This document shows, piece by piece, positions 392-50,076 of a DNA stretch of 64,000 bases (position 1 is its first letter; each line of letters begins with the position of its first letter). Source of the DNA: Ignavibacteriota bacterium (GTDB taxonomy: Bacteria > Bacteroidota > Ignavibacteria > Ignavibacteriales > Melioribacteraceae); assembly GCA_013112585.1 (NCBI GenBank), contig JABFGH010000017.1, forward strand, positions 35,922 to 99,921, in the 5' to 3' direction. Both the position numbers and the translations under genes were made by a program. Below the pieces are notes generated by a model that did not search any database, was not told the DNA's origin, and was given only the letters and a program-made list of their open reading frames with translations.

Positions 392-3382
392 ATGAATCTA
401 TTTTTTAGACGGTTAATAATACAGATAAGTTTGATTTTGTTTATTACAAATTCAGATGTATATACCCAAAACCTAAATATCAAAACCTACACATATAAAG
501 ATGGTTTACCGACTCATTCATTTTTTGATGCTGTACAAGATACAACCGGACGAATGTGGTTTGCCTGCAGTAAGGGATTAACAGTTTATGACGGCTTTGA
601 GTGGAAATTTCTCTCGGTAGATGAGGGAGTACCGATGGCAAATTATATTAAGATTGAACTTGATGATGAAGGCAGAATTTGGGCATTGCCGAAAACCCCA
701 ACAAATTCTATTATTTTTCGAGATAAGAATGAATGGAGGAAAATTCCCCCAATTCTAAATTCATCAGTTACCTTAGATATGAAAATGTGGGGTAGTAGTT
801 CTAATCCCAAAATCTCTGTAATAAGCAGAGACAGTATATTTGTATTTAATGGAATAAAGTGGGACAGTTATACAAACAGTTTTCCTGAATCGACTCTTTT
901 CTTTTCGATTGATTTCTCAAACGATCAACTATATGTATCTACATCCACTGGATTGTATATCATGTTAAAAGAAAATTTTAAAATCAATAAAGTAAGTTTA
1001 AAATTTCAAGCGGATGAATCAATTTTATCAATTTATACAAGACCAAATGCTAACAATACTGATATTTACATATTAACAAATTACGCTATATATGAATACA
1101 CAAATAATGAAATTAATTTAATTTTAGAAAACTTTAATATTTCGACAAGTTTAGAATACCAACATTTTTTTTTGGCAGTAGACCAATTTGATAATTTCTA
1201 TTTCGGAAATGATATAATTACATTTCATTATAATAATAGAAATAAAATGTTTCAGTTACTCGGGAAATCCCTTAATGATAAATCATTTGGTGCTTCTGGT
1301 GTCTATTTAGATCGGGAAAATAATAAATGGATAACTACTTTCAGAGGTATAGTCAAATTAAGTAATTCTCCATTTTTTTCATTCTATAAATCCGATGGAT
1401 TGCTTTCAAACGAGGTGAGTTCAATTGAACAGTTCGATGATGGAAGATTAATAATCGGGCATAATGAAGGATTTTCGATACTAACCAATTACTCCTTCAA
1501 TAAATATATGTTTGATAACTACAATGAATTTTTTAATCAAGATTCGCGTGTTTTAGATATGGTTAACTTCAATTCTGAAATTTATTTTACTGCTGCGAAA
1601 TTGGGCTTTGGAAAGTGGAGTAATAACAATATAATAAAGTGGGAAATCAAAAATTCTAATTACCAATTTTTAACGCTAAAGAATTTTAAAGATGAATTAT
1701 TAGTTTATAAAATTGATACTCTTTTCAAATTTAAAGATAATAACCTTTCTGTTTATAGCACATTCAATCATAAAAGTAGAATTGGGGCTAGAGAGATTAC
1801 TGTTGTAAAAAATGATATAATTTTAATTGCCACGAATGGTATTGGGTTGATTAAAATTAATAATAGGTATAATAATTCAGTAATAAAATCATATTATAAC
1901 GATTACAACAACGCCTACGCAATTTTCGAACAAAATGATTCAACAATCCTTGTAGGAACCAAAGGCGGACTATGTAAAATTCAAGATTCCATTCTCGTGC
2001 CCTACTCAATTAAAAATTTAGCGATTAACGAGCCAATTTATTTCATCGAAGCAGGGAATAAACCTGGCAGTATTTGGTTTGGATTAGATAAAGGAGCAAT
2101 TTATTGCGAAGATGGAAAAGCGAGACGCTACGACCCTAACTCAGGATTGGCAGGATATGAAACGAACAGACATGCCGGATTTCTTGATTCAAAAGGAAAT
2201 TTTTGGATTGGTACTGATAACGGACTTTCAATGTTTGCTGCAGGTAATGAGGATATTATTCCGCCAAAGCCGCTTATTGACATTTTATATCTCGAGGATA
2301 GAGAGTTTAATAAGTTCGATCTTCGAAATAAAATTCAACTTGATTACAATCATAACAGCTTTGCAATTCACTTTAGATGTTTATCATTCATTGATGAATC
2401 AAATATAAAATTTTTCCCTAAGTTATTAGATTCAGATGGAGAGGTTATCGAGGAGTTTGAAACTAAGGAAAAATCAGCTAGATTTTCTAATCTTCTGCCG
2501 GGAAGTTATAGAATTGAACTTTCGGCAATTAATTCAAACTCAATTAATAGCAATGTAATTTCTTCAAATATTATCACTGTCGATTCGCCATTTTATTATT
2601 CAATATGGTTTTTCATTCTAATAATCGGAGGATTAGTTTTTATCGGATTTTCTGTTCAGAAAAGTATCTCACAAAAAAAATATGCGAAACTATTAGAGAA
2701 GGAAGTAAAAGAACGCACATCTGAATTAGAAAAAGTAGAAGAGTTAAAATCAAAAGCTATTTATGAAAATATTGAAAATGATAGAAAAAGAATATCAAGA
2801 GATTTGCATGATGGATTAGGACAAATTTTAACAAGTGCAAAACTTAAACTGGAAACATTTCAATTATCAAAATCAATTGATGACAAACAGTTTTCAGGCT
2901 CACTTGATTTGATTAAAAATACCGGACAAACACTCCGCAAGATTGTTCATAATCTTCATCCATTAGAAATTGAAAAATATGGTCTTGCAGTTTCTATAGA
3001 AATGATGTGCAATGAAATGAATAATGACTCCCCAATAAAAATTGTAAGTCAAATAGGCAATTATAGCCGCAGACTAAGTAAAAAAAATGAAGTAATGGTT
3101 TTTAGAATAGTTCAAGAAGCACTAAATAATGCTATTAGACATTCAAATGCGAAAGAGATAAATCTTATATTTTGGGAAAGTATAGGCAATCTGCACATTA
3201 CAATTATTGACGATGGCTGCGGTTTTGATTTGGCAGATAAGCTAGATGCAAAAATTAAAGGAAGGCATTTTGGTTTGGTAAATATTAATCAGCGAGCTAA
3301 TTTTATTGGTGCGGATTTAGTAATCAGCTCGAAAATTAATTTAGGTACTACAATTAAACTTGAGGTTCCATTTAATGAATGA
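392..3382 (+). CDS. Two-component sensor histidine kinase with periplasmic beta-propeller sensor
   Basis: This is a hybrid sensor kinase of the kind common in Bacteroidota and Ignavibacteria. An N-terminal signal/anchor (about residues 1-25) is followed by a long periplasmic region of Reg_prop-type propeller blades (for example GRMWFACSKGLTVYDG and GNFWIGTDNGLSMF). A Y_Y_Y-like Ig domain comes next (about 640-735), then one membrane helix (about 738-757) and a coiled coil. The kinase core is HisKA_3 type, with the phospho-acceptor His806 in RDLHDGLGQ. The HATPase_c domain has an N-box (QEALNNAIRHS, near 909) and a G-box (DDGCGFDL, near 940). The stop codon overlaps the start of the response regulator gene, so the two are translationally coupled and very probably partners. 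The ligand is not predictable from sequence. Confidence 0.95.
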   Translation: MNLFFRRLIIQISLILFITNSDVYTQNLNIKTYTYKDGLPTHSFFDAVQDTTGRMWFACSKGLTVYDGFEWKFLSVDEGVPMANYIKIELDDEGRIWALPKTPTNSIIFRDKNEWRKIPPILNSSVTLDMKMWGSSSNPKISVISRDSIFVFNGIKWDSYTNSFPESTLFFSIDFSNDQLYVSTSTGLYIMLKENFKINKVSLKFQADESILSIYTRPNANNTDIYILTNYAIYEYTNNEINLILENFNISTSLEYQHFFLAVDQFDNFYFGNDIITFHYNNRNKMFQLLGKSLNDKSFGASGVYLDRENNKWITTFRGIVKLSNSPFFSFYKSDGLLSNEVSSIEQFDDGRLIIGHNEGFSILTNYSFNKYMFDNYNEFFNQDSRVLDMVNFNSEIYFTAAKLGFGKWSNNNIIKWEIKNSNYQFLTLKNFKDELLVYKIDTLFKFKDNNLSVYSTFNHKSRIGAREITVVKNDIILIATNGIGLIKINNRYNNSVIKSYYNDYNNAYAIFEQNDSTILVGTKGGLCKIQDSILVPYSIKNLAINEPIYFIEAGNKPGSIWFGLDKGAIYCEDGKARRYDPNSGLAGYETNRHAGFLDSKGNFWIGTDNGLSMFAAGNEDIIPPKPLIDILYLEDREFNKFDLRNKIQLDYNHNSFAIHFRCLSFIDESNIKFFPKLLDSDGEVIEEFETKEKSARFSNLLPGSYRIELSAINSNSINSNVISSNIITVDSPFYYSIWFFILIIGGLVFIGFSVQKSISQKKYAKLLEKEVKERTSELEKVEELKSKAIYENIENDRKRISRDLHDGLGQILTSAKLKLETFQLSKSIDDKQFSGSLDLIKNTGQTLRKIVHNLHPLEIEKYGLAVSIEMMCNEMNNDSPIKIVSQIGNYSRRLSKKNEVMVFRIVQEALNNAIRHSNAKEINLIFWESIGNLHITIIDDGCGFDLADKLDAKIKGRHFGLVNINQRANFIGADLVISSKINLGTTIKLEVPFNE

Positions 3383-4013: not shown

Positions 4014-4240
4014 CGGCTTTATAAGAAGACCTAATCACTCTTTAAAAATAGACCTTTCTACCTATTTACAAAATTGTTGATATTCACCAAATTAGTCCCA
4101 GTTAATTGAAATTATGTTCAGGGGGCGAAATAAGGATTGCGGTGTATGCCGCGGATTATAATCTTAGCGGTTAAACTGCAAAATTAGTTACCCTAATATG
4201 TTATAAACCCCTGTATGATTATAATCCCCTTATTTCTCTT

Positions 4241-42004: not shown

Positions 42005-42199
42005 ATGAGAACAAATATAGTAATTGACGATAAATTAATGAATTTAGCTCTTAAAACAACCGGCTTAAAAACAAAAAAGGAAGTTGTTGAAGAGGGGCTG
42101 AAAACATTAATTAAAATTAAAAGCCAATCAAAATTGAAAGCCTTGCGCAGTAAATTAAAATGGGAAGGCGACATAGAAAAGATGAGAATTGATAAATGA
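42005..42199 (+). CDS. vapB: VapB-family type II antitoxin
   Basis: The 64-residue protein starts MRTNIVIDDKLMNLALKTTGLKTKKEVVEEGLKTLI, a ribbon-helix-helix domain typical of VapB antitoxins. The basic C-terminal tail (SKLKALRSKLKWEGDIEKMR) would occupy the toxin active site. AAGAGGAAC gives a strong Shine-Dalgarno. The stop overlaps the vapC start by four bases (ATGA), the usual coupling. The pair sits between direct repeats at the left edge of the accessory island. Confidence 0.92.
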   Translation: MRTNIVIDDKLMNLALKTTGLKTKKEVVEEGLKTLIKIKSQSKLKALRSKLKWEGDIEKMRIDK

Positions 42200-42591
42200 T
42201 CTTTTTAGATTCCACAGTTCTGATTGATTATTTTAATGGAAATAAAAATTGGCAAGTCGAGTTTTTGGATGAAAGTTTGGGAAATGAATTAGTTGTAATT
42301 GGCGACTACGTAATAACAGAGGTACTGCAAGGCTTCCGAAGCGAGAAAGATTTTCAAAAAGCAAAAACCACCTTACTTTTATTTCCCTGTTTTGATATAG
42401 GCGGAAAAGATATTGCAATCCAAAGCGCAAAGAATTATCGTTATTTAAGAAAAAAAGGTTTAACAGTTAGAAAAACAATTGACGTAATGATTGCAACATT
42501 TTGTATAGAGAATAACTTAATGTTATTACACAACGATAAAGATTTTGAACCGTTTACAAAGTATCTAAAACTAAAAGTTTACGAGAAATAG
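42196..42591 (+). CDS. vapC: VapC-family PIN-domain ribonuclease toxin
   Basis: The 131-residue PIN domain retains the acidic active site: Asp5 (IFLDSTVLID), Glu42 (VITEVLQGF), Asp96 (KTIDVMIATF) and Asp114 (LHNDKDFE). VapC toxins cleave tRNA or rRNA when VapB is degraded. All catalytic residues are intact, so the module is probably functional. It overlaps vapB by four bases. The codon use and AT content are like those of its neighbours. Confidence 0.94.
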   Translation: MIFLDSTVLIDYFNGNKNWQVEFLDESLGNELVVIGDYVITEVLQGFRSEKDFQKAKTTLLLFPCFDIGGKDIAIQSAKNYRYLRKKGLTVRKTIDVMIATFCIENNLMLLHNDKDFEPFTKYLKLKVYEK

Positions 42592-43079
42592 TCATTTAAC
42601 GAAAAACGGTAATCGAATAATCGTAGAATCGAAAATCACAAATTATATTACTTTTAATCTTGTAAACATTTATCCGTTCAATCTTTTAATCTTGAGAATT
42701 TGGTAAACTTTCAATTGCGCTTCCCTTGCTTCCATTTCAAAATTAAATTATTTTCACTTATCAATTTTATATTTCGTTAAAATAATTCACTCATGCAGTT
42801 GATTTTATTAAACCGGGAGAAATAATTGTACAGAGGGAACAAAGTTACCGGCATATTCCAATTAGAAAAAAACAGAAAGTTTAATCTTATAAATTGTTTG
42901 TTAGTTCTTTTATTTGACATGAGTTAGTAATCCGTTAGATGGAGAATAATGGTTAGTTTGTTAGACAGCAGATTCTGCATGATAACATTCTAGGTAAATA
43001 TTAAATAAATAGTTATAAATAAATTAGTTACAGAGACATTTTGAGTTTTAATAAGATTATTAGACTGCAAAAACTGCCG
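42592..43079. other. Gap between vapC and the cassette region, with right flanking repeat
   Basis: About 490 bp without a credible gene. It begins with the right-hand copy of the direct repeat that flanks vapBC (42611-42638). The rest is AT-rich and has several GTTAG-type heptamers (for example near 42933), but no paired attC arms or integrase gene could be recognised. Confidence 0.55.
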
Positions 43080-43130
43080 ATCTAACAACTTTTGACTTTA
43101 CTTTCTCTGTAGCTTAATTAATAGTTAGGT
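43080..43130 (+). other. Possible short/degenerate attC-like site
   Basis: ATCTAAC (43080-43086) fits the R'' consensus RYYYAAC and GTTAGGT (43124-43130) fits R' (GTTRRRY). The first cassette gene begins seven bases after it, as expected for an inserted cassette. However, the inner arms pair poorly and the length of 51 bp is below normal, so it may be degenerate or coincidental. Confidence 0.3.
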
Positions 43131-43136
43131 GCTTAA

Positions 43137-43421
43137 ATGAAGATTGTAATGAAAATATATAGAATTAATAAAAGAATATTATATGTATTTCTAATATTTT
43201 TTTCTTTGGTTGGCATTATATCTTATAATATAACAGAGGATTGGGCTAGTGCTTTTTTTCAAGGTTTGACAGCTGCAATCTTTTTTGTGCTTATTTATAT
43301 TGTCGGTTATTCAAATGGTGTTGAAGAGGGTAAAACAAAAGGTTATGATAAAGCTTTGGAAGATTTAAATTCGGTTTTGCCACCTGAATTACAAAAAAAT
43401 ATGAGTGAGAAAACTAAATAA
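43137..43421 (+). CDS. Small membrane protein in putative integron cassette
   Basis: The 94-residue protein has two hydrophobic segments, at about 14-30 (ILYVFLIFFSLVGIISY) and 39-57 (AFFQGLTAAIFFVLIYIVGYS). A charged cytoplasmic tail follows (EEGKTKGYDKALEDLNSVLPPELQK). It starts seven bases after a possible attC core (GTTAGGT) and is followed by a second gene before the next attC. No family is recognised. The two-helix layout would fit an accessory membrane protein or part of a toxin/immunity pair, which is speculation. Confidence 0.7.
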   Translation: MKIVMKIYRINKRILYVFLIFFSLVGIISYNITEDWASAFFQGLTAAIFFVLIYIVGYSNGVEEGKTKGYDKALEDLNSVLPPELQKNMSEKTK

Positions 43422-43469
43422 AATAGGCTTAATAGAGCATATTTTGATTGCATATTAAGGAAATTAGAT

Positions 43470-44036
43470 TTGAGCATTTTATCCAAATTTTTCAATAATG
43501 AGGCTGCACAAACACGCGTCAAGATATGTGATATTATATCAACAAGTATTCAAAGTATAACGAAACTTGAAAAGGAATACATTCAAAAATTTTCTTCACA
43601 AGATTTAACTTACTTAAGAAAAAATCATAATACCAATGAAAGTAAATTTGAAAAGGCAATATTTACTTTATCTATCATATACAAAATATATAATAAGTAT
43701 GGTATATCTAAAGAAGAATTCTTTTCATTAGTATATTCTACTTATGATTTGTTTGCCAATCACGAAATAAGGGAAAAATTAAAGAAGAATGGCGTCCGTT
43801 CTAAAACTGATTTTTTAAATAGTCGTCTGAATTTTTATATTAGAGAATTAGACCTATTAACTAATCTCGAACATCCTCATTCTGGGTATATAACTAATTA
43901 CTGGTATGTTAATCCTTTATCCTTAGAAGAAGGTGTTGATAAAGGTTTCCACACACTGACTTTTTTCTTATCAATTATTTATCCAGATTATTTAAAATTA
44001 GTAGAAGACAGTGTAAATAAAGTTTTGGAAAATTAA
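43470..44036 (+). CDS. Hypothetical protein, cassette gene upstream of attC
   Basis: The 188-residue soluble protein is all-helical: IISTSIQSITKLEKEYIQKFSSQDLTYLRKN, FEKAIFTLSIIYKIYNKYGISKEEFF, and a C-terminal PLSLEEGVDKGFHTLTFFLSIIYPDYLKLVEDS. The start is TTG at 43470 with AAGGA upstream. Its stop is followed within 16 bp by the R'' core of attC at 44052, typical of integron cassette genes. No known domain is recognised. AT-rich codon use resembles the neighbouring cassette gene more than the housekeeping genes. Confidence 0.75.
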   Translation: MSILSKFFNNEAAQTRVKICDIISTSIQSITKLEKEYIQKFSSQDLTYLRKNHNTNESKFEKAIFTLSIIYKIYNKYGISKEEFFSLVYSTYDLFANHEIREKLKKNGVRSKTDFLNSRLNFYIRELDLLTNLEHPHSGYITNYWYVNPLSLEEGVDKGFHTLTFFLSIIYPDYLKLVEDSVNKVLEN

Positions 44037-44051
44037 AAAAAGATAAGTCGC

Positions 44052-44278
44052 ACCTAACAAGCAACTCAAAGCGACCGCGAAAACAAAGCGATCATTTTGA
44101 GTATGATAAAGTTTGTAAACAAGTTCAAGATTTTGTTGAACATTACATATTAATTAATCATTGTTACAGCCTGTTGCGTGGCTGACGCTAATTTACGCAA
44201 CGGCTGTTAATTTATTGGCACTTGGGGCTAAGGCGGCGTAACTGTGTGGGCGGCGCTTTAGTTGCAATGCCGTTAGGC
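44052..44278 (+). other. attC recombination site of an integron-type cassette (227 bp)
   Basis: R'' is ACCTAAC (44052-44058) and R' is GTTAGGC (44272-44278), both fitting consensus. Between them the L'' arm GCAACT-C-AAAGCG-A-CCGC (44061-44078) pairs with the L' arm (44250-44265) over 16 bases. It leaves exactly two unpaired bases, C44067 and A44074, the extrahelical bases expected of attC. The variable section contains a strong internal hairpin (44163-44210, GTTGCGT/ACGCAAC). It begins 16 bp after a cassette gene stop. At 227 bp it exceeds the usual 57-141 bp. Confidence 0.85.
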
Positions 44279-44345
44279 AGTAAATATTATAAAGGCAATA
44301 TTAATAATATCGTTCATTTTTTTATCATCTTGTTCTGGGACAAAG

Positions 44346-45047
44346 ATGATACAGATTAATGTCGATAAGTATCCATATTCAATTAAGAAAATGAATAACC
44401 TATTACTTGAGTATGAAGAATACTCATATGATGAAGATTTTAGATATTCACTTGATTCGAATGAAGTTTATAGAATAGCAAAAATATTTCAAGGCGCATA
44501 TACTACAAAAGAGGATTACTATAAATATAGAACTGAATTACAAAAAGCTATGGTTGATTCAATGGAAAAAACATATCATACAGATGAAATATTTTATGCA
44601 GCCGATCCAAGACAACTTTCATATAATTTAACCAAAGCAATTGAATTAAAATATGGTGAAAAATTTATAGAAGTTCTCGATCTATCAAATATTATTAAAG
44701 TAAAGATTATAAAACAATATTATAATTCCTTAAAAATACCTAAGGAAGAGATAAATTGGCACGGGTATAGGTATATTGTTAAAATAATTGATTTCTTAAA
44801 AAGAAATATTGAATTTAAAAAAGATACAATTGATATCGGCTGTTACTTAAGTATGATGGAACTTAACAAAGATAGTGAGTATATCATTGCTATTGATAAA
44901 AGCCAAGAAGAAGGAAAATACGATTGTAAACTAGTAGATCAAGAAATTAAAAACCATACGATAGAAGGTAAAAATTGGGATATGAGAGATTATACAAATT
45001 GGGAAAAATTTAAAATAGATTTTAGAAATAAATTTATACTTCAATAA
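44346..45047 (+). CDS. Hypothetical protein in integron-like cassette
   Basis: The 233-residue soluble protein is rich in Lys, Tyr, Ile and Glu. It starts MIQINVDKYPYSIKKMNNLL and includes GYRYIVKIIDFLKRNIEFKKDTIDIGCYLSMMEL and IAIDKSQEEGKYDCKLVDQEI. It has no signal peptide or membrane segment, and I do not recognise a domain. It lies 67 bp after the R' core of one attC, and its stop is six bases before the R'' of the next, so it is a complete single-gene cassette (about 984 bp from crossover to crossover). Confidence 0.75.
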   Translation: MIQINVDKYPYSIKKMNNLLLEYEEYSYDEDFRYSLDSNEVYRIAKIFQGAYTTKEDYYKYRTELQKAMVDSMEKTYHTDEIFYAADPRQLSYNLTKAIELKYGEKFIEVLDLSNIIKVKIIKQYYNSLKIPKEEINWHGYRYIVKIIDFLKRNIEFKKDTIDIGCYLSMMELNKDSEYIIAIDKSQEEGKYDCKLVDQEIKNHTIEGKNWDMRDYTNWEKFKIDFRNKFILQ

Positions 45048-45052
45048 AAACT

Positions 45053-45262
45053 GCCTAACCAGCGCCTCAACGCCGACCGCCATTTTAGTTCGGTGTATTT
45101 GTGATTTTTGAAATTGTGTTTTAGTTATAGTTTGTTGTTCAAGGTGTTCGTTCTAATTAATTAACTTGCCTTCGGTGCGTACTGAGTAAGTTACGCACCT
45201 ACGGCTTAATCATCGGCATTTGTGTTTTGCTCGGCTTCCTTGTTATGGGCGGCGGGTTAGGC
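45053..45262 (+). other. Second attC-like site (210 bp)
   Basis: R'' GCCTAAC (45053-45059) and R' GTTAGGC (45256-45262) are perfectly complementary. The inner arms GCC-TCAAC...GCCGA and, in reverse complement, GCC-ATAAC...GCCGA match, with a six-base insertion in the right arm, so pairing is weaker than in the first attC. The variable section has a perfect hairpin GGTGCGTA (45174-45181)/TACGCACC (45192-45199). It begins six bases after the stop of a cassette gene. An IS110-type element begins about 20 bp beyond R'. Confidence 0.75.
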
Positions 45263-45289
45263 GCAAGAACGTATGTTTAAGAAAGTAAT

Positions 45290-45303
45290 TAAATTGAGTT
45301 CTC
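45290..45303 (+). repeat. Left subterminal inverted repeat of the IS1111-type element
   Basis: TAAATTGAGTTCTC matches the reverse complement of 46549-46562 at 13 of 14 positions. It sits 21 bp before the transposase start codon. Confidence 0.7.
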
Positions 45304-45324
45304 AAAATAATAGGAGGACTCATT

Positions 45325-46392
45325 ATGAAAAGTTGTTTTGAAAATAAAAATTTGTTCGTTGGAATTGATGTTCATAAAAAACGTTGGGTTGTTACTGTTA
45401 GAACTTATGATCTTGAACTAAAAACTTTTTCTATGTCGCCTTCTGCTGAAGAACTTGATAGGTTTTTAAGTGCAAATTATTCCGGTGCTCTTTGTCATAT
45501 TGTTTATGAATGCTGCTTTGCTGGATTCTGGATTTACGATTACTTTAATAGTAATGGTTACGATATCATTGTTACACCTACTAACAGAATTTATCGTGAC
45601 GGTAGTATTGTGAAAACTGATGTAATTGATTCCCGCAAACTTGCATTCCAGCATTCAAGAGAATTACTTAGAGGAGTAAAAGTTCCCTCTATACAAATAA
45701 GGGAATACAAATATATTTTTAGAATATATGATAAAGAAAAGATGCGAGAAGGACAGATTCTTCGGCAGATAAAAGCTATTCTCGAACAGAAAAATCATCC
45801 GATGAAATGGGAGAAGTGGAATAAACAGTTTGTTGAAAAACTAAAGACTATTAGCTTTCACGATAAAATATTTAATTTGAAATTCTCCCAACTGATAAAA
45901 GAATATGAGTATGTTAAGGATCAAATAAAAGACAGTGAAAAAAGGATTAAAGATATTGCCGAAGATGATCAGTTAAGTATAAAGATTAAACGATTAGAAA
46001 AAATAAAAGGTATTGGAATTATTAGTGCCGTAAGATTAGTTGTCTATTTATTTGATAGAGACGACAGATTTATTTATGGTGAAAAATTGGTTCATTATCT
46101 TGGATTAACTCCCGGAGAGAAAAGTAGTGGAGAAGAAGTGATAAGACAGCGAACCGGATTGATTGGCAACAGACAATTGAGAGCAATAATTATGCAGCTG
46201 GCTTGGGTTGCTGTAAGGAAAGACGGAAATCTATTAGATAAGTTTGAAAGAGTTTATAAAAGAAGTGGATGTAAACAGAAAGCAATAGTGGCAGTAGCTC
46301 GTAAATTAATGATGAAAGTACATGCAGTAATAAAAAAAGAAGAAGAGTACGAAATAAATATAATTACCTCTGATAGAGGTAAAGCAGCTTAA
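45325..46392 (+). CDS. IS110/IS1111-family transposase (DEDD recombinase)
   Basis: The 355-residue protein has the N-terminal RuvC-like DEDD domain: Asp15 (FVGIDVHKK), Glu62 (IVYECC), Asp99 and Asp102 (VKTDVIDSRK). A coiled-coil linker follows (about 190-228). The C-terminal Transposase_20 domain has HYLGLTPGEKSSGEE (catalytic Ser268), then RTGLIGNRQLRAIIMQLAW. These enzymes use an RNA guide encoded in the element to choose donor and target DNA. AGGAGG upstream of the ATG is a strong Shine-Dalgarno. All catalytic residues are present, so the element may be active. Confidence 0.95.
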   Translation: MKSCFENKNLFVGIDVHKKRWVVTVRTYDLELKTFSMSPSAEELDRFLSANYSGALCHIVYECCFAGFWIYDYFNSNGYDIIVTPTNRIYRDGSIVKTDVIDSRKLAFQHSRELLRGVKVPSIQIREYKYIFRIYDKEKMREGQILRQIKAILEQKNHPMKWEKWNKQFVEKLKTISFHDKIFNLKFSQLIKEYEYVKDQIKDSEKRIKDIAEDDQLSIKIKRLEKIKGIGIISAVRLVVYLFDRDDRFIYGEKLVHYLGLTPGEKSSGEEVIRQRTGLIGNRQLRAIIMQLAWVAVRKDGNLLDKFERVYKRSGCKQKAIVAVARKLMMKVHAVIKKEEEYEINIITSDRGKAA

Positions 46393-46565
46393 GAACCGGT
46401 GACCGCGGCTAACGGCGTGCAATAAGCAGTTGTTTATTATAAATTGCGTAAAGCAAGAATGCGGCCCGGTTCCATTAAAACGAATATGATAATTGCTGCA
46501 TTGACAGCGAATAACAGGATGTTACTTCTTCTAATAAATAATTTTAACGAGAACTAAATTTACGG
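46393..46565 (+). ncRNA. Putative bridge/seek RNA in the 3' tail of the IS1111-type element
   Basis: The 173-nt stretch between the transposase stop and the right end is non-coding and structured. GAACCGG..CCGC (46393-46406) pairs with GCGG..CCGGTTC (46461-46472), enclosing a large internal loop region. A smaller stem ATTGCTG/CAGCGAAT lies near 46491-46513. In IS1111-type elements the guide RNA comes from this 3' position (in IS110 type it is 5'). The assignment rests on position, length and folding potential, not on covariance. Confidence 0.45.
46549..46562 (-). repeat. Right subterminal inverted repeat of the IS1111-type element
   Basis: GAGAACTAAATTTA is the reverse complement of the left repeat with one mismatch. 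It marks the right end of the element near 46565. Confidence 0.7.
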
Positions 46566-46611
46566 TTGTGTCTTAACATAACAAGCCGTTATACCGTTAA
46601 AGAGAATTATC

Positions 46612-47184
46612 ATGGAAGAAAAAAAAGAAGTTGATCCCTTGCAATTATTAAATGATAGATTTGAAGAAATTATTTTTTCTCTTGAATTGTGCAAAGATAA
46701 AGGATTTGTTTTGCCATCTTTAATGATATTGTATAATGCTATTGATAGCGCAGCACATTTGTATTCCAGTAATAAGTCTGGAAAAAAACGATTTATTGAT
46801 TGGGTTGATAAATTTATGATCAAATCTGAGGACTATGGTTTTACGGCTATTGACCTTTATTCTGCAAGATGTGGAATATTGCATACATTGACTTCAACTT
46901 CCTCTTTAGTTTTAGAAGGAAAAGCCCGAAAAGGCATATATTCATTAGATGACTCAAAAGAAGAAGATCTTCAAGAATTATTAGACCCATCAGTATTGAA
47001 TGAATGTTTTTTTGTAAAACTTGACGACCTTATCAAATTGTTTTACAAAGGTTTTTTAGAATTTTTTGATTCGATATTCATTGATACGAAGCTTAAATCA
47101 GATGTAGTTTCAAAATGTGGGAAATATTATAGTCACACAACTATTGATAAACTCGCAAAGGAAGCCGGTATAAAAACGGTATAA
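46612..47184 (+). CDS. Hypothetical protein with HEPN-like R-x4-H motif
   Basis: The 190-residue helical protein starts MEEKKEVDPLQLLNDRFEEIIFSLELC. Residues 86-91 read R-C-G-I-L-H within DLYSARCGILHTLTS, an R-x4-H motif of the kind that forms the active site in HEPN ribonucleases. The preceding helix (LPSLMILYNAIDSAAHLY) fits the HEPN four-helix bundle. It follows the IS1111-type element and may be the gene of a disrupted third cassette; no attC is visible after it. An RNase or defence role is an inference. No adjacent antitoxin is evident. Confidence 0.7.
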   Translation: MEEKKEVDPLQLLNDRFEEIIFSLELCKDKGFVLPSLMILYNAIDSAAHLYSSNKSGKKRFIDWVDKFMIKSEDYGFTAIDLYSARCGILHTLTSTSSLVLEGKARKGIYSLDDSKEEDLQELLDPSVLNECFFVKLDDLIKLFYKGFLEFFDSIFIDTKLKSDVVSKCGKYYSHTTIDKLAKEAGIKTV

Positions 47185-47243
47185 CCTCTTAAATCTGCCA
47201 ACAAAACGGCAGACAAGTAAGTAAACCCAATGGAAATAGAACC

Positions 47244-49073: not shown

Positions 49074-49370
49074 ATGAAAAAAGACATAGATCAAATATTA
49101 AAAACACTACAAAATTTAATTCCTACTTTAAAAGAGAAGTATGAAATCAGTTCAATCGAAGTATTTAGATCGTATGTTAATAACTTGCAGAAAAAGAACA
49201 GCGATCTTGATCTATTAGTTACTTTCAAACGCACTCCCGGACTTTTAAAATACATCAAACTTGAAAATTTTCTATCAGATTCACTTGGAATTAAAGTAGA
49301 TTTGGTAATGAAAAATTCAATTAAACCGAGATTTAGAGAAAGTATTTTAAGTAATACAATACCAGTATGA
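49074..49370 (+). CDS. Degenerate minimal nucleotidyltransferase (MNT)
   Basis: The 98-residue protein has the MNT fold: Asp44 and Asp46 in NSDLDLLVTF and Asp76 in IKVDLVMK remain. The glycine of the nucleotide-binding GS motif is replaced, however (VFRSYVNN, Arg32-Ser33, instead of FGSYARG). A GGA-to-AGA change would explain the Arg. Nucleotidyl transfer may therefore be lost, or it may act as a binding-only subunit. The stop codon directly abuts the start of a second MNT gene. Confidence 0.85.
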   Translation: MKKDIDQILKTLQNLIPTLKEKYEISSIEVFRSYVNNLQKKNSDLDLLVTFKRTPGLLKYIKLENFLSDSLGIKVDLVMKNSIKPRFRESILSNTIPV

Positions 49371-49706
49371 ATGTTAATATTTAAGGCAAAAATGAATTTA
49401 TCAGATCATGAAAAGGAAAACCTAAAAAAAAGAATCGTAGAAAAATTACAATTGCAGACTGAAATAGATAAGATTGTAATTTTCGGTTCCTTTTTGAAAG
49501 ACCGCAACCCAAATGATATTGATTTAGCAATATTCCAAAATAGTAATGAAAACTATTTAACCCTTTCATTGAAGTATAGAAAAGCAGTAAGAGAAATTTC
49601 AAAAAAAATACCAATAGATATCATTCCATTACTCAGCAATAAATTCAATGAATTTATTAAAAATGAAATTGAAACAGGTGAGGTGATTTTTGAAAGAGGA
49701 AACTAA
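49371..49706 (+). CDS. Minimal nucleotidyltransferase (MNT) antitoxin-like protein
   Basis: The catalytic motif IVIFGSFLKDRNPNDIDLAIF (Gly39, Ser40, Asp49, Asp51) is intact, and a third acidic residue is in KIPIDIIPL. MNT proteins paired with HEPN toxins add AMP to the toxin to neutralise it. The start is either ATG 49371, abutting the previous stop, or the ATG at 49392. The 3' end overlaps the HEPN gene by 17 bases, so the two are translationally coupled. At 111 residues it has normal length. Confidence 0.9.
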   Translation: MLIFKAKMNLSDHEKENLKKRIVEKLQLQTEIDKIVIFGSFLKDRNPNDIDLAIFQNSNENYLTLSLKYRKAVREISKKIPIDIIPLLSNKFNEFIKNEIETGEVIFERGN

Positions 49707-50076
49707 ACTTTGGCTAAAATATGCTGAGGAAAATTTAGAAGCTGCAAGGGTTCTACTTACCAGCCAATTATATAATCCTTCACTCCATAATGTTCAGCAG
49801 TCCGTTGAAAAATCATTGAAAGCCTTATTCATTGAATATGGCATAAAATTAAAAAAGTCACACAGTATAAGTGAACTAAAAAATATTTTAGAAAATGAAG
49901 GTCATCGAATTGAATTAGAAGATGATGAAAGCGAATTGCTTGATAGCATCTACCTCCCATCAAAATATCCAGTTGGCAGCGCTTTGCCGGATTACTACCC
50001 GGATCATGAAACCACTAAAAAGTGCATCGATATCGCACGCAGATTGTATGATGATATAACAAATAAATTAAAATAA
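49690..50076 (+). CDS. HEPN-domain protein (HepT-like toxin candidate)
   Basis: The 128-residue four-helix protein has the HEPN-family signature: WLKYAEENLEAARVLL, YNPSLHNVQQSVEKSLKALFIEYGIKLKKSHSISELKNIL, and the late tyrosine-rich region PVGSALPDYYPDHETTKKCIDIA. The start is TTG at 49690, inside the end of the MNT gene. In MNT-HEPN modules the HEPN protein is usually an RNase toxin silenced by AMPylation. No strict R-x4-6-H motif is visible here, so it could be an altered or regulatory member. Confidence 0.88.
   Translation: MKEETKLWLKYAEENLEAARVLLTSQLYNPSLHNVQQSVEKSLKALFIEYGIKLKKSHSISELKNILENEGHRIELEDDESELLDSIYLPSKYPVGSALPDYYPDHETTKKCIDIARRLYDDITNKLK

Follow-up and report, generated by a model that had tools for sequence, protein, structure and literature searches.

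An array of integron cassettes lies on the plus strand of the window, that is, the whole stretch of 64,000 nucleotides analysed here from contig C17 of an Ignavibacteriota genome (G000; other C numbers are its further contigs, and L and G labels are loci and genomes, mostly of relatives). The locus contains an attI-like sequence, the starts and ends of the cassettes, two attC sites, both ends of an insertion sequence (IS) whose insertion point is common to relatives, and, 3' of the transposase gene, a hairpin with covarying pairs. The region is very probably an integron cassette array formed by the attI-like site and three cassettes, with the integrase gene intI undetected in the assembly, and with the second attC interrupted by a 1317-bp IS of the IS110/IS1111 type, likely directed to attC by a guide RNA that its noncoding downstream part would encode. 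A previous sequence-only reading had described a cassette array without integrase (CALIN), with two attC sites, in a probable Ignavibacteria genome. The latter assignment is supported, through named relatives only, and the array is longer than first described, as it also includes the attI-like site (43013–43128), the IS (45267–46583), and a third cassette (46588–47185).

Cassettes, attC sites and an attI-like sequence

The first bases of an integron cassette are complementary to the R'' region at its own end. Among the 1493 GTTA...TAAC pairs separated by 300–1500 bp in the window, just three reached at least 9 bases of uninterrupted extended complementarity, all of them cassette start/end pairs (43124/44058, 9 bases; 44272/45059, 10 bases; 46588/47185, 11 bases), and thus three cassettes were recognised. 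Cassette A (43124–44271), with open reading frames (ORFs) at 43137–43421 (94 aa) and 43470–44036 (188 aa), begins with GTTAGGTGC, complementary to GCACCTAAC at 44050–44058. Cassette B, the complete single-gene cassette already proposed between the two attC sites, encodes a 233-aa protein (44346–45047) and begins with GTTAGGCAGT, complementary to ACTGCCTAAC at 45050–45059; it extends from 44272 up to the IS (45266), with its last bases and the boundary R' located beyond it. The third cassette (46588–47185) contains a 190-aa ORF (46612–47184), and its start GTTATACCGTT is complementary over 11 bases to its own R'' (AACGGTATAAC, 47175–47185).

The attC of cassette A (site 1, 44052–44278, 227 nt) is intact, with R'' (ACCTAAC, 44052–44058) and R' (GTTAGGC, 44272–44278) cores, complementary L'' and L' arms that form 16 pairs and leave two bases bulged (C 44067 and A 44074), and the top profile score in the window (72.9 bits). 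Cores, arms, and rank confirm it as the attC with 16-base arms and exactly two bulges that had been described from the letters. The claim that the sites start shortly after gene stops was also right, as sites 1 and 2 begin 15 and 5 nt after a stop codon, respectively.

The profiles behind these scores were derived from the left 28 and right 36 bases of 19 attC sites, none of them from the window (six lie on other G000 contigs, and one, in L043, is nearly identical to site 2, the attC of cassette B), and both strands were scanned. Over the 64 kb, sites 1 and 2 were, in this order, the two best left-right pairs (72.9 and 63.7 bits), followed by a pair of 5.8 bits, with zero pairs on the opposite strand having both halves above zero. 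Exclusion of the L043 site (18 sites) gave 73.1 and 60.3 bits for both sites, the next match being a shifted reading of site 2 (27.6), and then 5.8; further exclusion of the same-genome sites (12 sites) gave 71.7 and 62.7 bits, with the next at 10.1 and the other strand at 6.5. No recognisable attC arm was found 3' of the R'' of the third cassette (left-arm profile of −9.6 bits; −8.2 and −5.3 in the reduced-training repeats), which counts against a complete third cassette; because the arm profile recognises nothing there, the attC of this cassette is, on the profile evidence, truncated or degenerate.

Other searches for attC sites were less informative. In stem scans with relaxed cores, chance matches in A+T-rich sequence overwhelmed the output, and a stricter scan (score 33) returned 24 matches vs. 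29 in the reversed sequence; the sequence profile took their place, and stem-scan arm scores were used solely to compare two placements of one site. Rfam searches gave no match, and whether Rfam includes an attC model was not checked. Besides the site itself (E 2.7e-122), BLAST of site 1 against its own genome returned four weak matches, none better than E 0.0228, and pattern searches in this genome gave 13 right-arm matches vs. 6 in the backward control and 11 left-arm matches vs. 21, a left-arm match being relied on solely where paired with a right arm. Further attC sites of G000, called by sequence and arm score, are located on contigs C25 (two), C4, C3, and C10, the placements of one on C10 and of the second on C4 being weak (29.2 and 32.2).

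The attI-like site that precedes the first cassette (43013–43128) carries the core TTAATTAATA/GTTA at 43114–43127. This sequence shows 83.6% identity over 116 bp to a copy on C20, placed directly before another cassette with its attC (C20:87594–87812), and its other matches in G000 are weak (E 0.048 or worse). The core TTAATTAATAGTT (up to 2 mismatches) was found 95–210 bp downstream of the intI stop codon in 17/41 distinct intI loci (48 rows minus 7 duplicates, several with less than 450 bp of downstream sequence and one with none) vs. 72/2000 random 450-bp stretches. As the core recurs downstream of intI in relatives, both places in G000 look like attI. The C20 copy (86881–86996; L119 6882–6997), the second attI-like site of this genome, stands before a cassette and an attC and has no recognisable intI.

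No integrase gene is present in the window, as had been stated, and this extends to the whole assembly, where 14 matches to the integron integrase model TIGR02249 were found, none of them over the 265-bit cut-off (best, 82.8 bits); an intI over the curated cut-off was present in 69/391 genomes of the class, G000 not being one of them. Neither the window nor the C20 stretch gave a remnant in a tblastn search with one intI protein. Of the two parts of a complete integron, intI and attI, an attI-like site is present here and intI was not found. The idea that an integron elsewhere in the genome had mobilised these cassettes found no backing, given that none with an integrase was found in the assembly. 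As for the CALIN, the presence of at least two attC sites (one of them split) and the lack of an intI over the cut-off in the assembly agree with it, but an attI-like sequence precedes the first cassette, so that the array has the appearance of an integron deprived of its intI, and a plain CALIN describes it less well. A deletion probably removed the integrase and spared attI.

A truncated tyrosine recombinase on C16 (L009 6329–6727) was considered as an intI relic and rejected, since its scores with integrase_gron (50.4 bits) and XerA (41.1) are both far below the cut-offs; it is slightly closer to the integron integrase than to the XerA models. Directly upstream of the attI-like region, where relatives suggest that intI should be, a VapB/VapC toxin-antitoxin pair is found (42005–42591), and a run of GTTAG repeats occupies noncoding DNA before the attI-like site (42880–42980). 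In L064 (14445–17662, genome G113), intI is on the cassette strand and the array lies downstream of its stop codon.

Regarding the cassette proteins, a search of 5.8 billion proteins gave a single relative (96%) for the 233-aa one, and the 390 other genomes of the class searched gave none; the 188-aa one has two other relatives (57% and 51%), and the 190-aa one has a single relative besides itself in 391 genomes (G191, 54%), without a clear cassette structure there. This patchy distribution fits cassettes and argues against vertical inheritance. None of these proteins matched Pfam over the cut-off, and PADLOC gave weak matches only (best E 0.0027). Beyond the array, three small ORFs (49074–50076) resemble, by eye, nucleotidyltransferase (MNT) and HEPN toxin-antitoxin genes, for which they are candidates.

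Insertion sequence within the second attC site

The IS (45267–46583, 1317 bp), whose ends were defined by comparison with relatives, encodes a 355-aa IS110-family transposase (45325–46392; NF033542, 179.3 bits with a cut-off of 140; PF02371 and PF01548 over their cut-offs), flanked within the element by 58 bp of upstream and 191 bp of downstream noncoding sequence. Residues 260–269 of this DEDD/IS110-type transposase (GLTPGEKSSG) fit the IS1111 motif GL-P----S(T)G, and putative, imperfect subterminal repeats that differ by one base in length lie near 45272–45281 (TATGTTTAAG, left) and 46572–46580 (TATGTTAAG, right).

This element splits site 2 in two. The left part (45053–45266; left arm, 35.5 bits) comprises R'', L'', the loop, L', and CAA, and the right part (46584–46594), beyond the IS, consists of the spacer AGCC and the R' core GTTATAC (46588–46594). 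The sequence-only reading had correctly recognised R'' (45053–45059) and the left arm, but its R', the GTTAGGC at 45256–45262, sits inside L', where the left-arm sequence GCGCCTcAAC pairs with GTTAGGCGC. The right-arm profile scored −7.1 bits at this former placement, 28.2 at 45277, where IS sequence substitutes the end of the site, and 49.9 when 45266 was joined to 46584; the reduced-training repeats gave −5.4 and −2.9 for the former placement vs. 48.4 and 48.1 across the IS, and the arm score changed from 27.5 to 45.7 in the joined site. Once joined, site 2 is 84.2% identical (192/228 columns) to an unoccupied attC of L043 (G327, same order), in which GGCGGCGGGTTAGGCGCAA directly continues into CGTCGTTATAT, less than 1 kb from an intI gene. 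The inner part of this long attC is conserved between cassettes (window 45050–45266; L043 547–778, 84%; C10 157965–158056, 74% over 92 bp) and contains another hairpin, in a manner reminiscent of lineage-specific attC families.

Relatives of the transposase (E ≤ 1e-60) are present in 6/391 genomes of the class, that of the window included, and a scan of genome contigs yielded nine loci, assigned to Ignavibacterium (2), Ignavibacteria (3), Ignavibacteriaceae (2), Chlorobiota (1), and Bacteroidetes (1). IS ends were counted without the duplicates L077, L078, L079, and L081, and the left end of L082 was unreadable beside a run of N. Ten out of 11 distinct occurrences of the left-end motif abut an attC L' ending in CAA, and eight of these ten have a TAAC R'' core in the preceding 270 bp (R'' is degenerate in L091 and was not seen in L086). 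On the other side, 12/15 distinct matches of the right-end motif are followed by three bases and CGTTA. Insertion into attC at a fixed point and in a fixed orientation, which defines the group of IS1111 elements inserted in attC, was thus found at these ten left ends and 12 right-end matches. Two peculiar arrangements were also seen: L091 carries an internally deleted IS of 368 bp (2926–3293) that keeps both ends inside attC, with the right end joined to R' and another right end at 4194, and in L088 (around 2740–2837), some 48 bases that include the L' arm of attC occur as a tandem duplication immediately ahead of the IS.

Among plasmids, the transposase matched 1042 records, each with less than 60% identity, the best-ranked one showing 31.4%; the annotation of the plasmid neighbourhoods of three IS110 relatives lists no integron.

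Putative guide RNA and alternative explanations

Downstream of the transposase gene, positions 46390–46474 fold into a putative seekRNA (bridge RNA) hairpin of 19 pairs (model R1, 89.7 bits), which is common to the nine relatives compared, with 98.2% of the cells paired. Changes on both sides were found in 8/19 pairs (17 cells), a covariation reached by 0/500 shuffles, and slid versions of the structure showed 24–41% pairing. The model matches a single place in G000 and 7/391 genomes of the class, namely the six with the transposase and G388, in which the match lies at a contig end and the right junction is also CGCCGTTAG; the plasmids searched gave no match to this putative RNA. TAACGGC and GCAAG are kept in 9/9 hairpins, and the segment CTAACGGCG of the window hairpin is the reverse complement of CGCCGTTAG, the attC spacer plus the R' core. 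When the 9-base guide was compared to 11 right flanks, 7 to 9 of the 9 positions matched.

Because this covarying hairpin carries a segment complementary to the attC spacer and R', insertion of the IS is probably guided by a seekRNA, and we infer that the hairpin RNA is made, bound, and used by the transposase. In the proposed mechanism, the RNA would be produced and bound by the transposase, its CTAACGGCG segment would pair with the attC spacer and R' core on the top strand, its GCAA segment would pair with the bottom strand at the end of L', and the IS would insert between L' and R'. Such an insertion would separate R' from the rest of the attC hairpin, with the consequence that its use by IntI would be blocked and cassette B would be tied to its neighbour.

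Several facts weigh against this interpretation of the locus. The right flank of the IS in the window matches the 9-base guide at 7 positions only, and on the left the agreement of GCAAG with the flanking (G/A)CAA covers 3 or 4 bases, or 4 to 5 if the first IS base is counted. No attC accompanies the left end L083:2943, and CGTTA is missing at the right-end matches L085:3057, downstream of which a partial second copy of the transposase gene is found, and at opposite-strand matches in L086 and L091. The transposase, with 355 aa, slightly exceeds the 330–350 aa given for IS1111 elements (PMC11187229). The attC arms covary in alignment A4 (20 attC sites, 91.9% of cells paired; 0.454 vs. 0.124 when shuffled), but many of these sites were picked by arm pairing, which biases the figure towards structure, whereas the profile ranking uses sequence only. 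Finally, the attI core is present at part of the intI loci and not at all of them, and the assembly consists of 77 contigs, so that intI may lie in a gap.

Three other explanations were weighed. In the one that follows the original description, site 2 would be a second complete attC ending at 45262 in a plain CALIN, and the IS110 gene would be simply the next gene of the array; the 7-base perfect complementarity between R'' (45053–45059) and GTTAGGC (45256–45262) speaks for it, but both the right-arm and the arm scores of that placement fall far below those obtained across the IS, and the unoccupied L043 homologue, running straight into CGTCGTTATAT, contradicts it, so we regard it as highly improbable. 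Targeting without RNA is also quite unlikely: the IS could have reached attC through protein recognition of the folded site, or by chance followed by hitch-hiking, with the hairpin RNA reading something else (e.g., the IS ends) or having no targeting role. An attC does fold into a hairpin that a protein could read, and the match of the guide to the window's own flank is imperfect, as stated above; however, all nine hairpins retain TAACGG and GCAAG, different attC sites have been entered at one and the same point, and the IS110/IS1111 elements tested so far target by RNA (PMC11187229, PMC11208160).

The third explanation concerns the attI-like sequence, which might be flanking DNA duplicated together with the cassettes and not an attI, the cassettes having been inserted in trans by the integrase of another cell. 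Its two copies in G000 (C17 and C20), neither with a recognisable intI beside it, and the attC sites at other loci of this genome would be accounted for in this way, but the core and its position relative to the first cassette match the sequence found downstream of intI in relatives, and this duplication is given a small, though not negligible, chance. 

Meaning and relation to known systems

On these comparisons, the IS of the window probably represents a divergent lineage of attC-targeting IS1111 elements, present in Ignavibacteria. An origin independent from the known attC group is possible, because of the low identity of the transposase to all the plasmid records. Tentatively, and at somewhat less than even chances, Ignavibacteria could carry their own seekRNA-guided IS lineage dedicated to integrons, whose guide would read the attC spacer and R' core and whose specificity would have arisen independently of the proteobacterial IS1111-attC group. 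If true, RNA-guided transposition would have converged on the very site used by the integron integrase. The data suggest that attC-attacking ISs extend beyond Proteobacteria, the group from which they had been reported, and the transposase seen here is remote from any in the plasmid collection. Since cassettes have in common the part of attC (spacer and R' core) that the guide segment matches, a single RNA could address many of them. In addition, these loci supply occupied sites and a near-identical unoccupied one for the study of guide-target pairing, and the array itself exemplifies an integron that keeps attI and cassettes and shows no integrase.

Among the known attC-targeting IS1111 elements, ISKpn4, ISPst6, and ISPa25 appear in PMC11187229, which also reports seekRNAs for ISKpn4 and ISPst6, and ISPa21 appears in PMC11616780; this literature cites Tetu and Holmes (2008) as well as Post and Hall (2009). 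Integrons in Ignavibacteriae are mentioned in PMC9024848; no report of attC-targeting IS1111 elements in Ignavibacteria was found among the matches listed from the open-licence literature.

Compared with chromosomal integrons of Ignavibacteria and relatives (L064, G113), the array has attC sites with the same arm and core pattern as those of 221–224 nt found there, but intI precedes the array in them (L064 14445–15425), unlike in the window. With the CALIN of IntegronFinder it shares attC sites and cassettes without a detected integrase, whereas the array of the window retains an attI-like site and has an IS inside one attC. IS621 and the bridge-RNA IS110 elements belong to the same recombinase family (profile matches to IS621, E 9.4e-09, and ISCro4, E 2.3e-12) and likewise have a noncoding RNA with a target-complementary internal loop, putative in our case; they differ in that here the RNA would lie in a long right end and putative subterminal repeats are present, as in IS1111 (PMC11208160). 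The IS1111 features given in PMC11187229, namely a downstream noncoding region, subterminal repeats, the GL-P----S(T)G motif, and a seekRNA with the top-strand match 5' of the bottom-strand match, are also seen in the window IS as regards the noncoding region, the motif, and the order of the segments, the putative repeats being imperfect. Finally, the IS shares with the IS1111-attC group (ISKpn4, ISPst6, ISPa25, and ISPa21) the type of transposase, the insertion into attC, and the noncoding region downstream of the gene, and differs from it in its hosts, Ignavibacteria and their kin, and in a transposase distant from those in plasmid records.

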